Assembly (NCBI GenBank): GCA_902802755.1
Contig: CADCNH010000003.1
Coordinates: forward strand, 1 to 64,000
Length of the DNA stretch: 64,000 nt
From: an uncultured Bacteroidota bacterium
GTDB lineage: Bacteria; Bacteroidota; Bacteroidia; Bacteroidales; WCHB1-69
Direction: 5' to 3'
Below are positions 33,064 through 63,291 of this stretch, one piece after another (within the stretch, counting starts at the first letter, position 1; each line of letters starts with the position of its first letter). A program made the translations under genes and the position numbers. The notes below the pieces were generated by a model. It searched no databases. It saw only the letters and a program-made list of their open reading frames with translations, and was not told where the DNA came from.

Positions 33064-36000
33064 ATGACTTTTCTGCAACAACTCTCCCAAGCCATCCTGC
33101 AACGTGATGACATCCCACTGAAAGACACGCTGATAGTGCTACCCAACAAGCGCGCCCGGCGGATGCTGCAAAAGGAACTGGCCGCCGGCATCTCGCAGCC
33201 TTGCTTCTCCCCCACCATCTTCTCTATCGACGAATTTATCCACAAACTGTCGGATTACACCCTCTGCGATGACATCGACCTGCTGCATATCTTATTCAAA
33301 GCATACCAAGAGTTTGAACATGCCAAAAGCGAAAAGTTGTCGGCTTTCCTGTCATGGGCCGAGACTTTCATCCACGATATCAGCGAGATAGACATGCAAC
33401 TGGCCGATGCCTCCAAGGTTTTCGGGAATCTGTCGGACATCAAAGAACTGGAAACCGTTTTTGGCCGTGAAAATCTTACCGACAGCCAGCAACGCTACTT
33501 GCAATTCTATGCCACACTGCACAATCTCTATCGCCAATTTAACAGTTTTTTAGACGAAGATAAGTTGGCTTACGAAGGCAAAATATACAAAGAGACCGCA
33601 GAGAATATCATACACTATGCGCAAAAGTTCAACTTCAAGCGATATATTTTCGCCGGCTTCCAGACACTCTCCCCTTCCGAAATGGAAATTGTACGGTATT
33701 ACCATCAGGAACATCAGGCCGAATTTTACTTCGACATAGACAAATTCTATCAGGAAAACTATACTCCCTTTATTACCATCCTTCAGAATAAACTGAAAAT
33801 CAAAGAATTGAAATGGATCCACACCGACTATGCCAGCATCCCGAAGCAAATCAACATTGTGGGTGCCTCCAAGTCCATGAATCAGATTCTATACGCCATC
33901 GAACAGCTGAACCGCATTGAACAGGAGGAAGGGAACCTGAACGACACGGTTCTCGTCTTCGCCGACGAGAAACTGCTCACCCCGTTCATCCACTGCTACG
34001 ACTGTGGCAAGGCCAATTTGACCATGGGGTATCCGCTGAATGCCACACCGGCATACGCCTTGCTCTCCACACTCATGGAAACAGCACGAAACAGCCAACG
34101 ATTCCAGAGTATGCAGCAAGGAGAATTTTTGTATTACCATAGGGATGTGTTCAGTTTTTTCAGAAATCCACTAATTGTAAAATATTTGTTTCCAGATAGC
34201 AAGACCAACAAACAATTCCTGAAAGGGCTCACCGACCTCAACAGCATATTTTTTCCGCGACAGACATTGGACTTTTCAGAATACACATTTCCGAATCTTT
34301 CTGGAAATCCTGTCGAGATTTTGGAGGAGACCCTCAACTTTTTCACTTTACTGACAACACAAACCGCCGATGATACAGCCAAGTATTTCGACCATTACTG
34401 TCTCAACCTTATACTCGACAAACTGCAACAAGCCCTTAACCATATTCGCGAATTCGACACCCAACTCATCGACCTCGAATCTTCCTTTTTCATTCTCAAA
34501 AACCTTATCCAGCATATTTCCATCCCATTAAAGGGCAGTCCCTCAGAAGGTTTGCAAATCATGGGACTATTGGAAACGCGTGCCTTGGACTTCAAGAAAA
34601 TCATTATGCTGTCGGTCAACGAGGGAACCCTGCCGGCAGGCCGGAGTAGCAACTCACTCATCCTGCATGAGGTCAAGAAATACTTCAACCTACCCACCTA
34701 TCAAGAAAAAGACACAGTTTACGGCTACCACTTCTTCCGCCTGTTACAACGAGCCGAACAGATTTACCTGATTTACGACAACGATTCAACCAACTCGCTG
34801 GCCGAAAAAAGCCGCTTCCTCAACCAACTCGACTTCGAAGTTAAATCACAGGAAATCAGTAACATAAATATCAAGGAATTGGTACTGCCCACTCTGGTAA
34901 ACACTGAGCGCAATTCAACGGAAATCAGCATCACAAAGAATGAGACCATCCTTCAGCAGCTAAAGAAAAAGCAATACTCTTATACCCACTTGAACGACTA
35001 CCTCAACTGCCCACTTCAATTCTATCTCAAACACATCGCCAAAATCAAACCCGCCGATGACATTTCCGAAAGTGTGGAACAAAAACTGATTGGCGACGCC
35101 ATACACCACTTGATGGATAAGATCGGACAGGAACTGATTGCCCAACCGTCAGCCTATCCGCAAATCATCGAGGACACACTGAAAAACATTGATAGTCAGG
35201 TCGAAGCAGCCATGAAGGAAGCCATTTTAGGGGACAGGGGGCAGGGGTCAGGGGTCAGTGATCAGGAGACCGTCCGTGGAATTCAAAATTCAAAATACAG
35301 AATTCAAAATACTAATGAGCCCGAAACTGTCAACTGTCAACTGTCAACTGCCAACTGTCAACCGTCAACTGTCAACCCAAAAATACACATCGATTTGACT
35401 CATGGGAAAAGCTATTTGGCCAATGAGGTCGTCAAGAAAGCTATCACCACCTACCTGAAGAGTATGAAAGCTGATTTCGAGAAGGCCGAGAAACAACAAT
35501 ACAGCTTCAAAATCATCGCTACAGAGCAGAAAATGACCTGCACGATTAACGTTGACCAAAAACCGATACAACTGAAGGGCTATGCCGACCGTATCGACTT
35601 CCGCAACGGCCTTGTCACCCTGCTGGACTATAAAACAGGCTATGTTAATGACAAAGGGCTGAGTTACGAGAAATTCAACGATATATTCACTGGCACCGAA
35701 CACAAGCAACTGTTGCAGTTGCTGATGTACGCCTACCTATATGAGAGGAGCCAGAGGACAGGGACCAGTGATCAGGAGACTGTTCATGGAATTCAAAATT
35801 CAAAATTCAGAATTCAAAATACTAGTGAGCCCGAAACGGCCAACTGTCAACCGTCAACTGAAACCTGTAAGCTGAAACCTGAAACCTGTCAACTGTCAAC
35901 TGTCAACTATCTGTGCGGGATTATCAGTTTCCAGCGAATGTACCAGAAAAAAACGCATGAGCTCTACCCTATTTTTCAGGGGTCAGGGGACAATAACCAG

Positions 36001-36369
36001 GGGACAGGAGTCAGTGATCAGGGGTCAGATGATGGAATGAACAATGAACAATGGACAATGCACAATGCACAATGCACAATGCACAATGTACAATGCACAA
36101 TGTACAATGCTGATAATCTGTCACCTGAAACCTGTAACCTGAAACCTGTAACCTGTAACCTGAAACCTGACGACTGTCAACTATCAACTGTCAACTCGAC
36201 TAATCTTATCACACCAGAAATACTGCGACTTTTCGAAAAACACCTCATTAATCTGCTGCGTGACATCATCAATCCTAAACAGCCCTTCTGTCAGACCGAT
36301 GATGTGAACCACTGCGTCTATTGCGACTATTCCGCCATCTGCAAAAGGCAAAACACAAAGGATGAGTAG
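33064..36369 (+). CDS. AddB-type PD-(D/E)XK nuclease/helicase-like protein with repeat insertions
   Basis: This is the probable partner of an AddA-like helicase in double-strand break end processing. The start is ATG 33064. The N-terminal half carries VLPNKRARRML and the AddB-typical LQIMGLLETRALDFKKIIMLSVNEGTLP (residues about 497-525). The nuclease module has YTHLNDYLNCP (639-651), GYADRID...LDYKTG with D855 and K857, QLLMYAYLYE, and a final CVYCDYSAIC (C1084, C1087, C1093) that with C650 could bind an iron-sulfur cluster. Three inserts made of heptamer repeats (residues about 723-771, 895-948, 972-1044) lie between motifs, in frame. Without them the length is about 925 aa, a usual size for this family. 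All catalytic motifs are kept, so it may be functional. Confidence 0.75.
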   Translation: MTFLQQLSQAILQRDDIPLKDTLIVLPNKRARRMLQKELAAGISQPCFSPTIFSIDEFIHKLSDYTLCDDIDLLHILFKAYQEFEHAKSEKLSAFLSWAETFIHDISEIDMQLADASKVFGNLSDIKELETVFGRENLTDSQQRYLQFYATLHNLYRQFNSFLDEDKLAYEGKIYKETAENIIHYAQKFNFKRYIFAGFQTLSPSEMEIVRYYHQEHQAEFYFDIDKFYQENYTPFITILQNKLKIKELKWIHTDYASIPKQINIVGASKSMNQILYAIEQLNRIEQEEGNLNDTVLVFADEKLLTPFIHCYDCGKANLTMGYPLNATPAYALLSTLMETARNSQRFQSMQQGEFLYYHRDVFSFFRNPLIVKYLFPDSKTNKQFLKGLTDLNSIFFPRQTLDFSEYTFPNLSGNPVEILEETLNFFTLLTTQTADDTAKYFDHYCLNLILDKLQQALNHIREFDTQLIDLESSFFILKNLIQHISIPLKGSPSEGLQIMGLLETRALDFKKIIMLSVNEGTLPAGRSSNSLILHEVKKYFNLPTYQEKDTVYGYHFFRLLQRAEQIYLIYDNDSTNSLAEKSRFLNQLDFEVKSQEISNINIKELVLPTLVNTERNSTEISITKNETILQQLKKKQYSYTHLNDYLNCPLQFYLKHIAKIKPADDISESVEQKLIGDAIHHLMDKIGQELIAQPSAYPQIIEDTLKNIDSQVEAAMKEAILGDRGQGSGVSDQETVRGIQNSKYRIQNTNEPETVNCQLSTANCQPSTVNPKIHIDLTHGKSYLANEVVKKAITTYLKSMKADFEKAEKQQYSFKIIATEQKMTCTINVDQKPIQLKGYADRIDFRNGLVTLLDYKTGYVNDKGLSYEKFNDIFTGTEHKQLLQLLMYAYLYERSQRTGTSDQETVHGIQNSKFRIQNTSEPETANCQPSTETCKLKPETCQLSTVNYLCGIISFQRMYQKKTHELYPIFQGSGDNNQGTGVSDQGSDDGMNNEQWTMHNAQCTMHNVQCTMYNADNLSPETCNLKPVTCNLKPDDCQLSTVNSTNLITPEILRLFEKHLINLLRDIINPKQPFCQTDDVNHCVYCDYSAICKRQNTKDE
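35230..35378 (+). repeat. Heptamer insert 1 inside the AddB-like gene
   Basis: Seven-nt tandem units GGGGACA, GGGGTCA and GTGATCA are followed by ATTCAAA units (35281-35312), a linker with GAGCCCGAAAC, then seven AACTGTC-type units (about 35325-35377). It translates without stops as GQGSGVSDQET..., IQNSK and NCQLSTV peptides. Confidence 0.85.
35747..35907 (+). repeat. Heptamer insert 2 inside the AddB-like gene
   Basis: It has the same order as insert 1 (GTGATCAGGAGAC, GGAATTCAAAATTC, GAGCCCGAAAC, AACTGTC units) and the same reading frame, plus ACCTGAA units. The shared non-heptamer linkers show that inserts 1 and 2 derive from one composite element. Confidence 0.85.
35977..36195 (+). repeat. 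Heptamer insert 3 inside the AddB-like gene
   Basis: About 220 nt of GGGGTCA, then AACAATG/CACAATG units (about 36037-36110), then ACCTGAA/ACCTGTA units and AACTGTC units. In frame it reads QGSG..., NEQWTMHNAQCTM... and TCNLKPV.... It lies between the nuclease core and the terminal cysteine cluster. Confidence 0.85.
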
Positions 36370-37377: not shown

Positions 37378-38397
37378 ATGGAAAAAGAAACATTCACTTG
37401 GCAACAACCCGGAGCATGGCGTAAACCATGTATTGTTCATGCGACAATGGTTGCCAACAACCGTCAGTCACTTTTCGGCACACTCATCCATAATGGGACA
37501 AATGCCGAAGTAAAAAAAACAGCCCTTGGATGGATACTCATAAACCAACAACAACGTATGCTTGAACTTTGTCCGGAAATGAAAATACTTGCTGATAAGG
37601 TTATGCCCGACCATCATCACATTGTCCTGCAAGTTCAACGAACCATGCGCCGTAGTATCAAAGAGGTTGTGCGGGGTTATATGCAAGGTTGTAAGGCTGA
37701 AGCTCGCAAATTAGGCTTTACTGAGAACTTGTACGATGCTCCTCCATATTACCGTGTACTAACACACAAAGGGCAGCTTCAAGCAATGATTGACTACGTA
37801 TATGCCAATACTGAACGTGCTTGGCAGAAAAAACAGAACCCCAATCTCTTCCGAATGCATCGTAACACAGAAGCAAATGGTCTTTATTTCACATCTTTAG
37901 GTAATCATTTCTTACTCAACTGGCCCGAACGTCAATTGGTTGAAATGTCACGCAATACTACAGAAAAGCAAATTCAACAACGGTTGCGAGAGGCACTGAC
38001 AGCAGCACACAATGGAGCAGTCTCTTACACAGCGGCTATCAGCAAAGGGGAAAAACTTATCGCCCGCACTATACGTGAGAATGGCTTTCCCCTAGTTGTA
38101 CTTCTCAATAACGGATTCCCCGAAGAAGGCTCACCGCATGAACATTTCTACAAACCTGGTGGTGTCTATTTTGAGGCATGTTCTAAAGGAAATTTGTTAC
38201 TTCTAGAGCCTACTAAACAAACATTATTTTCCCCCTTAATCATCTCTGCAACAGAAGAAGTATTACGTCAAAAAGCCATTGACAAGCACCACAGTTATAT
38301 GCCCGTTCCCACATCCACGCAACGTTACCATTTCATTGCACTCAATGAAATAGGGAAACTGCTTGTGACAAGGACTTTGGGCTTTTCTAGCGGATAG
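37378..38397 (+). CDS. IS200/RAYT-like Y1 transposase with unusual C-terminal domain
   Basis: The N-terminal about 150 residues look like a Y1 HUH transposase of the REP-associated group. MPDHHHIVLQV (H79, H81) aligns with the family motif MPNHVHLLL, and MIDYVYANTERAW about 60 residues later carries the candidate catalytic tyrosine (Y140 or Y142). Such enzymes nick and rejoin single-stranded DNA at small hairpins. The remaining about 190 residues (ISKGEKLIARTIRENGFPLVVLLNNGFP...GGVYFEACSKGNLLLLEP) are not part of the standard enzyme and look Rossmann-like, vaguely like DprA/SLOG folds. It is not flanked by tnpB. Single-copy, domesticated-looking, and surrounded by palindromic repeats. Confidence 0.65.
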   Translation: MEKETFTWQQPGAWRKPCIVHATMVANNRQSLFGTLIHNGTNAEVKKTALGWILINQQQRMLELCPEMKILADKVMPDHHHIVLQVQRTMRRSIKEVVRGYMQGCKAEARKLGFTENLYDAPPYYRVLTHKGQLQAMIDYVYANTERAWQKKQNPNLFRMHRNTEANGLYFTSLGNHFLLNWPERQLVEMSRNTTEKQIQQRLREALTAAHNGAVSYTAAISKGEKLIARTIRENGFPLVVLLNNGFPEEGSPHEHFYKPGGVYFEACSKGNLLLLEPTKQTLFSPLIISATEEVLRQKAIDKHHSYMPVPTSTQRYHFIALNEIGKLLVTRTLGFSSG

Positions 38398-46859: not shown

Positions 46860-47102
46860 TTCGAATTAATAATTGACAATTAATAGGTTTCAGGTTACAG
46901 GGGTCAGGGGTCAGTGATTAGGGGTTGGGGGGAGAATTCAAAATTCAAATCGTCAACTGTCAATTGTCAATTTATTCAATTGGCACATTAGCACATTAAC
47001 TAATTAGCACTTTAAAAATCTCCCCTTGAGCACGAAGTGCGAAACTCCCCTTATGCGAAGCATAACTCCCCGAGCTCACGCAGTGAGCGTCTCCCCGTCT
47101 TC
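46860..47102. repeat. Heptamers, octamers and ACTCCCC hairpin array
   Basis: Heptamers AGGTTTC, AGGGGTC, TTCAAAA and CAACTGT run from about 46880 to 46972. Octamers with GCACATTA follow, then TCTCCCC/ACTCCCC at 47019, 47044, 47065 and 47090 with spacers of 18, 14 and 18 nt. Spacers include TATGC-GAA-GCATA and GCTCAC-GCA-GTGAGC. Confidence 0.8.
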
Positions 47103-62162: not shown

Positions 62163-62352
62163 CAAGTTTTCAGTGGTCAGTTATTAGGTGGATAATTCAA
62201 AATTTAAAATTCAAAATTCAAAATTCAAGATCCATTTTTAACTATTAACTATCAACTATTAACTATCAACTATTAACTAACAACTATTAACTAACACCTG
62301 ACCACTAATCACTGACCACTGACCACTGATCACTGACCACTGATCACTATCA
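62163..62352. repeat. Long heptamer tract between trmD and the O-methyltransferase
   Basis: About 185 nt of seven-base units in blocks: TTCAAAA (62196-62227), AACTATT/AACTATC (62239-62290), then CACTGAC/CACTGAT (about 62300-62350). It runs into the TGA stop of the upstream gene. Confidence 0.85.
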
Positions 62353-62988
62353 GCACATCACCATCATAATCCCATCCCGCATGGGCAGCAGCACATTACT
62401 CACTCGCTCATCTTGTTGCACAAAGTCATTAAAATCCATAATGGCCTGGGTATCCAAGTCCAGATGCCCATCCTGTTCTACCACTTTGCCGCTCCACAGC
62501 ATATTGTCAATCAGCATAACACCGCCTTTTCTCATACGAGGCAACAACATCTCATAAAATTCGCGATTACTGCGCTTCTCCGCATCAATAAAAACCAAGT
62601 CCCATTGACAGTCAAAAGTCGGTATCAACTGTCGTGCATCGCCGATATGGAGTCGTATTTTCTCCTTATATTGTGGCGTTCCAATATATCTACTAATTAT
62701 CTCTTCCTTTTCCTCATCCACCTCTATCGTATCCAAGTATCCATCAGGGGCCAGTCCCTCAGCCAGACACAATGCTGAATAGCCAGTATAAGTTCCTATT
62801 TCCAATACATGTTTAGGTTGCATCATACGGGATACCATGGACAAAAAACGCCCTTGCAAATGTCCAGAAATCATCCTTGGCTTCACTGCCTTCAGATGAG
62901 TTTCTCTATACAAGCGGTATAGGAGCTCCCCTTCCTCAGTGGTATGAGCTTCGCAGTAGTCTTCGATAAGGGGGAAAGTTATGTCCAT
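62350..62988 (-). CDS. Class I SAM-dependent O-methyltransferase (CCoAOMT-like)
   Basis: The 212-aa methyltransferase has motif I VLEIGTYTGYSALCLAEGL and the metal/substrate region DLVFIDAEKRSNREFYEMLLPRMRKGGVMLIDNMLWSGKV, typical of the caffeoyl-CoA/catechol O-methyltransferase family. Bacterial members methylate catechol-like compounds or have unknown targets. The start is ATG 62988 (MDITFPL). A longer frame from 63084 is open only because a heptamer tract upstream happens to be stop-free (IINCQLS repeats), so I reject the extension. XseB is the next gene upstream, about 105 nt away. Confidence 0.88.
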   Translation of the reverse strand: MDITFPLIEDYCEAHTTEEGELLYRLYRETHLKAVKPRMISGHLQGRFLSMVSRMMQPKHVLEIGTYTGYSALCLAEGLAPDGYLDTIEVDEEKEEIISRYIGTPQYKEKIRLHIGDARQLIPTFDCQWDLVFIDAEKRSNREFYEMLLPRMRKGGVMLIDNMLWSGKVVEQDGHLDLDTQAIMDFNDFVQQDERVSNVLLPMRDGIMMVMC

Positions 62989-63097
62989 AGTTGACAGTTG
63001 ACAGTTGATAATTGATAATTGACAGTTGATAATTAATAGCTCTAATCCCTGATTCCTGATTCCTGATCCCTGATCCCTGACCACTGACCACTATCAA
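62989..63097. repeat. Heptamer tract between the O-methyltransferase and xseB
   Basis: TTGACAG/TTGATAA units (62990-63040) and ATTCCTG/ATCCCTG/ACCACTG units (about 63049-63090) fill the entire gap and contain the TGA stop of xseB (63096-63094). Confidence 0.85.
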
Positions 63098-63291
63098 CTT
63101 TCAGTTTGCATGATTTTGGCGATTTCTGCTTCGGTTTTTGTGAGTTTATCCTTGCAGAGTTTGATAAGCATCGTACAGCGTTTAATTTTATCTGACAATT
63201 CATCGACAGAGATATCCGCATTTTCCATTTCCTGGACAATTTGCTGAAGTTCGTCAAATGCTTCGGTATAGGTGATGGTTTCTTTGGCCAT
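63094..63291 (-). CDS. xseB: Exodeoxyribonuclease VII small subunit
   Basis: The 65-aa protein starts at ATG 63291 (MAKETITYTEAFDELQQIVQEMENADISVDELSDKI). It matches the XseB pattern of two helices with FDELQQIVQEME and the LT.AEAEI-like end (LTKTEAEIAKIMQTES). With XseA it forms exonuclease VII, which degrades single-stranded DNA to oligonucleotides. XseA is not in the window; in many genomes xseA and xseB are adjacent. The last residues and stop merge with heptamer repeats. Confidence 0.88.
   Translation of the reverse strand: MAKETITYTEAFDELQQIVQEMENADISVDELSDKIKRCTMLIKLCKDKLTKTEAEIAKIMQTES

Follow-up and report, generated by a model that had tools for sequence, protein, structure and literature searches.

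In the genome studied here (G000; the other G numbers denote relatives), dispersed heptamer arrays have probably been recruited repeatedly and in frame as neutral, disordered loop or linker material. On the observed side of this explanation are empty orthologous sites, the placement of the inserts on a tree, an intact frame and domain, the stop-freedom of the coding arrays, length steps of 7 and 21 nt and the similarity between sites. In mechanistic terms, surface loops in the nuclease half of an AddB-like protein would have taken up 7-nt arrays in frame, which would be translated as disordered linkers, and at least seven further genes of G000 would have undergone the same process. Relative to the preliminary description of this DNA, the sharing and evolution of the inserts across the genus, their presence in other genes, the 7- and 21-nt length steps and two one-unit frameshifts are new. 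The significance of such a process is that, on several occasions within one lineage, non-coding tandem repeats would turn into interior parts of conserved enzymes; the gains can be located on a tree, and the sites are empty in relatives. The length quantum of 21 nt and the loop-to-loop copying are visible, so that a natural series of loop insertions within one enzyme is at hand and the old idea of short repeats feeding new coding sequence becomes directly testable.

An AddB-like gene with three in-frame heptamer inserts

The host gene lies at 33064..36369 on the + strand of the window (the whole 64,000-nt stretch of DNA that was analysed), stop codon included, and its coding part, 33064-36366, is an open reading frame of 1101 codons without internal stop. 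Profile and fold matches identify the product as an AddB-like helicase/nuclease subunit of 1101 aa. The C-terminal PD-(D/E)XK nuclease domain matches PF12705 (PDDEXK_1) with an E-value of 9e-26 and 91.7 bits against a cut-off of 22, a profile match to B. subtilis AddB (3u44_B) has an E-value of 2e-9, and the top PDB fold matches of the AlphaFold model are the AddB chains 4cej_B and 3u44_B (E about 1e-21). We use the name AddB-like because the curated AddB model TIGR02786 yields only 78.1 bits, below its cut-off of 486.5.

Four Fe-S-type cysteines are invariant in 19 orthologues, namely C649 before the nuclease core and C1084, C1087 and C1093 after it; judging from the sequence, they are the AddB Fe-S set, and the cluster is putative. 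The codon of C649, in the motif YLNCP, is at 35008..35010 (+), the nuclease motif DYKTG (aa 855-859) occupies 35626..35640 (+) between inserts 1 and 2, with D855, Y856 and K857 invariant in the same 19 orthologues, and CVYCDYSAIC, which carries the three C-terminal cysteines, is found 3' of insert 3 at 36313..36342 (+). The three motifs are intact, as had been described, and their key residues are invariant. Since DNA-end binding by AddAB reportedly requires the Fe-S cluster (Yeeles and colleagues in 2009), an AddB-like protein deprived of its C-terminal cysteines would be expected to be inactive. On the same contig, a 1085-aa open frame with UvrD_C (C3:109205-110284) may encode the AddA partner.

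The presence of three heptamer blocks within this single frame was confirmed, and none of them contains a stop in the frame of the CDS. Insert 1 (35229..35380, +, 152 nt, aa about 723-772) is composed of CAGGGGT units, a linker, AATTCAA units, a second linker and AACTGTC units; insert 2 (35744..35911, +, 168 nt, aa about 894-949) of a G-rich part, AATTCAA and AACCTGA/AACTGTC; and insert 3 (35977..36200, +, 224 nt, aa about 972-1045) of CAGGGGT, AATGCAC, AACCTGA/T and AACTGTC. The units are thus CAGGGGT, AATTCAA, AATGCAC, AACCTGA/T and AACTGTC with short linkers, and TAACTGA is not among them. In the AlphaFold model, pLDDT is below 50 at aa 725-774, 900-945 and 970-1045 for inserts 1, 2 and 3, respectively, with values of about 25-30 and no secondary structure in the inserts and mostly 80-90 in the flanking domain. 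All three inserts are therefore predicted to be disordered loops around an intact AddB fold, which supports the character first proposed for them.

A structured or palindromic element was considered for the inserts and rejected: inverted repeats of at least 12 nt are absent from inserts 1 and 2 (two weak ones occur in insert 3), and RNA folding is near that of shuffled controls, with z of -1.8, -1.4 and 0.05. A regular-expression scan of both strands revealed a single G-quadruplex motif in the whole window, GGGG-N3-GGGGG-N2-GGGG-N3-GGGG, inside insert 1 at 35230..35254 (+); as it lies on the coding strand, it would be present in the mRNA.

Distribution among relatives

Across the 60 relatives examined, AddB inserts were detected in six species of a genus of uncultured rumen bacteria (G000, G008, G002, G001, G006 and G004) and in no others, sites 2 and 3 being occupied in all six and site 1 only in G000 and its sister G008. 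The early-branching G005 and G007 and the aligned family and order orthologues have short loops, i.e. empty sites, so that the inserts are absent outside the six-species clade, which rules out ancient AddB loops shared with distant orthologues. A tree of the insert-free part of AddB recovers the six-species clade with support of 100/100 and the G000+G008 pair with 100/99. Capture at sites 2 and 3 would accordingly date to the ancestor of the six species and capture at site 1 to that of G000 and G008. Taking all heptamer arrays together, the six-species genomes and G003 have many, G005 hardly any and G007 none; in the family, such arrays are rare. An intact AddB-like gene was not found in the array-rich G003, whose best match has an E-value of 1.6e-7; the gene is either lost or broken in the assembly.

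Every genome in the six-species clade is apparently a metagenome assembly; the insert-bearing Tb.RUG.402 and RGIG6710 (sheep rumen) are MAGs. An assembly or binning artefact could be suspected since short-read metagenome assemblies with tandem repeats are concerned and one-unit frameshifts could be consensus errors. The inserts, however, are not unique to G000 but common to six species and, as a phenomenon, not an assembly error; they occupy the same codon positions in different species and in MAGs of independent projects, and the frame is kept in 12 of the 14 AddB inserts. We regard an artefact as extremely improbable.

Length steps and reading frame

In intact genes, the site-3 anchor gap measures 252 nt in G000, 189 nt in G008 and 147 nt in G002, i.e. 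12, 9 and 7 times 21 nt, and the site-2 gaps of four species exceed the empty site of G007 by 126, 189, 84 and 84 nt, all multiples of 21. Site 2 of G001 and G004 is 6 nt off the series, the NlpC inserts fall outside it, and G004 has all but lost site 3. Of the 39 inserts counted, 37 are in frame, a binomial figure for this being descriptive only as it counts related species. We infer that the arrays would grow and shrink by replication slippage and that selection would retain only those changes that restore the frame and lie in loops, three heptamers being 21 nt and one heptapeptide repeat.

A change in copy number does shift the frame, as comparison between species reveals. The site-3 anchor gaps of G001 (196 nt) and G006 (154 nt) are one heptamer longer than the 21-nt series, and in both species the CVYCDYSAIC-type tail with its three cysteines is out of frame after site 3. 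The two frameshifts lie on separate branches of the tree, and the C-terminal tail is still constrained between G001 and G006 (pS 0.22, pN 0.045), which points to a shift that is recent, polymorphic or reversible, or else to a consensus error. With two of six species frameshifted at site 3, the gene may be decaying or switching in some lineages rather than tolerating the inserts.

Such switching would be phase variation, in which the gain or loss of a single heptamer shifts the frame before the Fe-S cysteines and turns AddB off, with a reversible loss of recombinational repair. The exact one-heptamer offsets on separate branches and the constraint on both tails would agree with it, and NeuO of E. 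coli K1 switches likewise via a coding heptanucleotide array that keeps the frame only when the number of copies is a multiple of 3 (PMC13001214). We nevertheless consider phase variation unlikely, as the arrays are short and impure, with about 4-7 near-identical units per run in contrast to the long pure tracts of contingency loci, and the affected genes encode housekeeping enzymes and not surface structures. The NeuO array itself has a single type of unit and lies close to the 5' end of a gene for surface modification that is carried by a phage (PMC13001214), whereas the arrays described here are mixed, lie inside housekeeping enzymes and are mostly in frame.

Copying between sites and divergence

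Blocks 1 and 2 of G000 had been noted to share linkers and frame, and they match over 126 nt at 86% identity, linkers included and in equal codon register. Comparable pairs within one gene are sites 1 and 3 of G008 (85% over 117 nt) and sites 2 and 3 of both G006 (87% over 109 nt) and G001 (96% over 67 nt). When all inserts are compared, the strongest matches include different sites of one species and the best pairs differ by species; this between-site similarity supports the suggestion that one block was copied from another. Since site 1 is filled from different sister sites in G000 and G008, it was either overwritten once the two lineages had separated or acquired on two occasions from inside the gene, and the copying is intragenic in either case. 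Copying between sites and between loci would proceed by short-homology recombination, through gene conversion or template switching.

Between G000 and G008, dN amounts to 0.51 and 0.48 at sites 1 and 2 compared with 0.08 in the flanks, i.e. 5-6 times as much, with a flank dS of about 0.8. Synonymous changes, on the other hand, are fewer in several inserts than in the flanks (ketoacyl synthase 0/16, CcsA 4/22, AddB site 3 6/33). This deficit is not given by neutral point mutation alone and needs repeat homogenisation or a DNA-level constraint; it is expected if the units are homogenised.

The persistence of the loops over speciation, at the flank dS just given, and their position around the nuclease domain could also point to a function, be it contacts with AddA or DNA or the binding of a metal or redox centre by the many cysteines. 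The high dN of the first two sites and the almost complete disappearance of site 3 from G004 make a function very improbable in our view, all the more so as unit types have been swapped among species and the loops differ several-fold in length and are predicted to be disordered. Under the neutral recruitment favoured here, the insert loops would have no function of their own.

Heptamer arrays across the genome

A survey of 464 kb of G000 (400 kb of stretches plus the 64-kb window) yielded 26 blocks of lag-7 arrays totalling 1960 bp, a periodicity far beyond chance, compared with 0-1 blocks at each of lags 4-6 and 9-12, 12 blocks at lag 8 and none after mononucleotide shuffling. Across these 464 kb, 66% of the repeat bp lie outside ORFs of at least 100 aa, though ORFs cover 89% of the sequence. 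The proposal that the inserts stem from the same pool as the intergenic repeats is supported. An intergenic array at 46864..46972 (+) has the unit order CAGGGGT, AATTCAA, AACTGTC of inserts 1 and 2. Plasmids of Nostoc and Kovacikia carry nearly identical arrays of AATTCAA, and a search of plasmid DNA returned short matches to single unit types only.

A repeat unit whose length is not divisible by 3 is said, after Ohno in 1987, to be read as one peptide repeat in all frames, and the preliminary description had derived possible stop-freedom in all three frames from 7 not being a multiple of 3. This holds for pure AACTGTC, which is open in all three frames, but not for the real mosaic blocks 2 and 3, which are open solely in the frame used. 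The other two + frames contain 0/3 stops in block 1, which is open in one further frame, 1/6 in block 2 and 4/10 in block 3, and the - frames 2-7 each. Intergenic arrays are stop-free in 12% of the choices of sampling window, frame and strand at 60 nt, 3.1% at 90 nt, 1.3% at 120 nt and 0% at 150 nt, and a comparison array of 162 nt at 62189..62350 (+) has stops in all six frames. Open stretches of at least 120 nt are exceedingly rare among intergenic arrays, which means that filtering for units and for frame has shaped the coding arrays and that their openness is selected and not automatic.

A mobile element of fixed order (CAGGGGT, AATTCAA, AACTGTC), MITE or RAYT/REP-like, that transposes into genes would explain why this order recurs: among the sampled loci, coding and intergenic, CAGGGGT is followed by AATTCAA nine times and AATTCAA by AACTGTC five times, and insert 1 has an intergenic counterpart at C21 (77% over 121 nt). 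It is made improbable by the many arrays at these loci that have a single unit type or a different order, by inserts 1 and 2 lacking inverted repeats at their termini, and by the sole transposase-like neighbour (37378-38397) being single-copy and missing from array-bearing relatives. The product of this neighbour, 339 aa long, contains an HHH motif as well as a stretch, YVYANTERAW, that recalls RAYT/Y1 transposases; it has no Pfam match, and a 29% relative exists in G021. We rejected the gene as the mover of the arrays, as it is single-copy in G000 and absent from 8 other genomes of the genus, most of them array-bearing.

A broader view, to which we give little credence, would have this rumen Bacteroidales genus possess an array-copying system that donates in-frame loops to housekeeping enzymes, the AddB arrays doubling as a one-heptamer switch of double-strand-break repair, a pathway that may itself move arrays.

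Relation to known repeat families

No paper among the open-access literature consulted combines interior enzyme positions with empty orthologous sites, steps of 21 nt and copying inside one gene; single elements of this combination have parallels. Rickettsia palindromic elements are dispersed repeats found in frame in many unrelated genes, to which they add peptide segments (Ogata 2000; PMC10969869). The likeness lies in the in-frame insertion into unrelated genes, here AddB and at least seven others; those elements, however, are palindromic and of about 150 bp (PMC10969869), whereas the inserts described here have no palindrome and are multi-unit 7-nt arrays of variable length that are copied between sites of one gene.

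Closer in unit length are the TAACTGA direct repeats, which are mostly intergenic and occur in Beggiatoaceae, cyanobacteria and some Bacteroidetes, the latter with mixed heptamer assemblages; within ORFs they are found in the reverse orientation, which is the stop-free one, and mostly at protein ends or in hypothetical ORFs (MacGregor 2015, PMC4679880). The present arrays resemble these and STRR in being dispersed 7-nt direct repeats that are mostly intergenic, and differ from the TAACTGA repeats by their position in the interior of conserved enzymes, the empty orthologous sites, the several unit types and the genus-wide history. The cyanobacterial STRR and GGGNATC are likewise dispersed heptamer families, the latter under-represented in coding regions (PMC4692102), and belong to another phylum. 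An origin of coding sequence from oligomeric repeats was put forward by Ohno (1987), as cited in PMC2759123; that theory concerns early genes, whereas here the process would be a present-day one with gains placed on a tree.

In-frame arrays in other genes

The search for other coding arrays identified in-frame heptamer arrays in at least seven further genes of G000, a non-exhaustive lower bound because the genome was sampled. They are of six kinds: NlpC/P60, AroE, CcsA, PfkB, two ketoacyl synthases and an AMP-binding protein, of which NlpC/P60, AroE, CcsA and one ketoacyl synthase are confirmed by Pfam and PfkB, the other ketoacyl synthase and the AMP-binding protein were named by reading. The NlpC/P60 array is located in the linker between the SH3 and catalytic parts. 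Relatives have other lengths or empty sites for NlpC/P60, AroE, CcsA, PfkB and one ketoacyl synthase.

AroE of G000 (L219) carries a second insert, QINKSTNQQINKKAFFIQENW, apparently derived from octamer repeats, lag 8 being the second most frequent period. The 28-codon insert of a ketoacyl synthase (L243-L245) has no synonymous change among three species at a flank dS of up to 0.9, an identity that is due to recent exchange, homogenisation or a DNA-level constraint. For PfkB (L236-L242), G004 has two genes, one with and one without the insert, and the copies that bear it in G000, G003 and G004 share about 95% identity, a level that suggests exchange between species. At 62983-63099 of the window, a heptamer array and the 5' end of a methyltransferase-like frame of 244 aa overlap, possibly providing that protein with a repeat-coded N-terminal extension.
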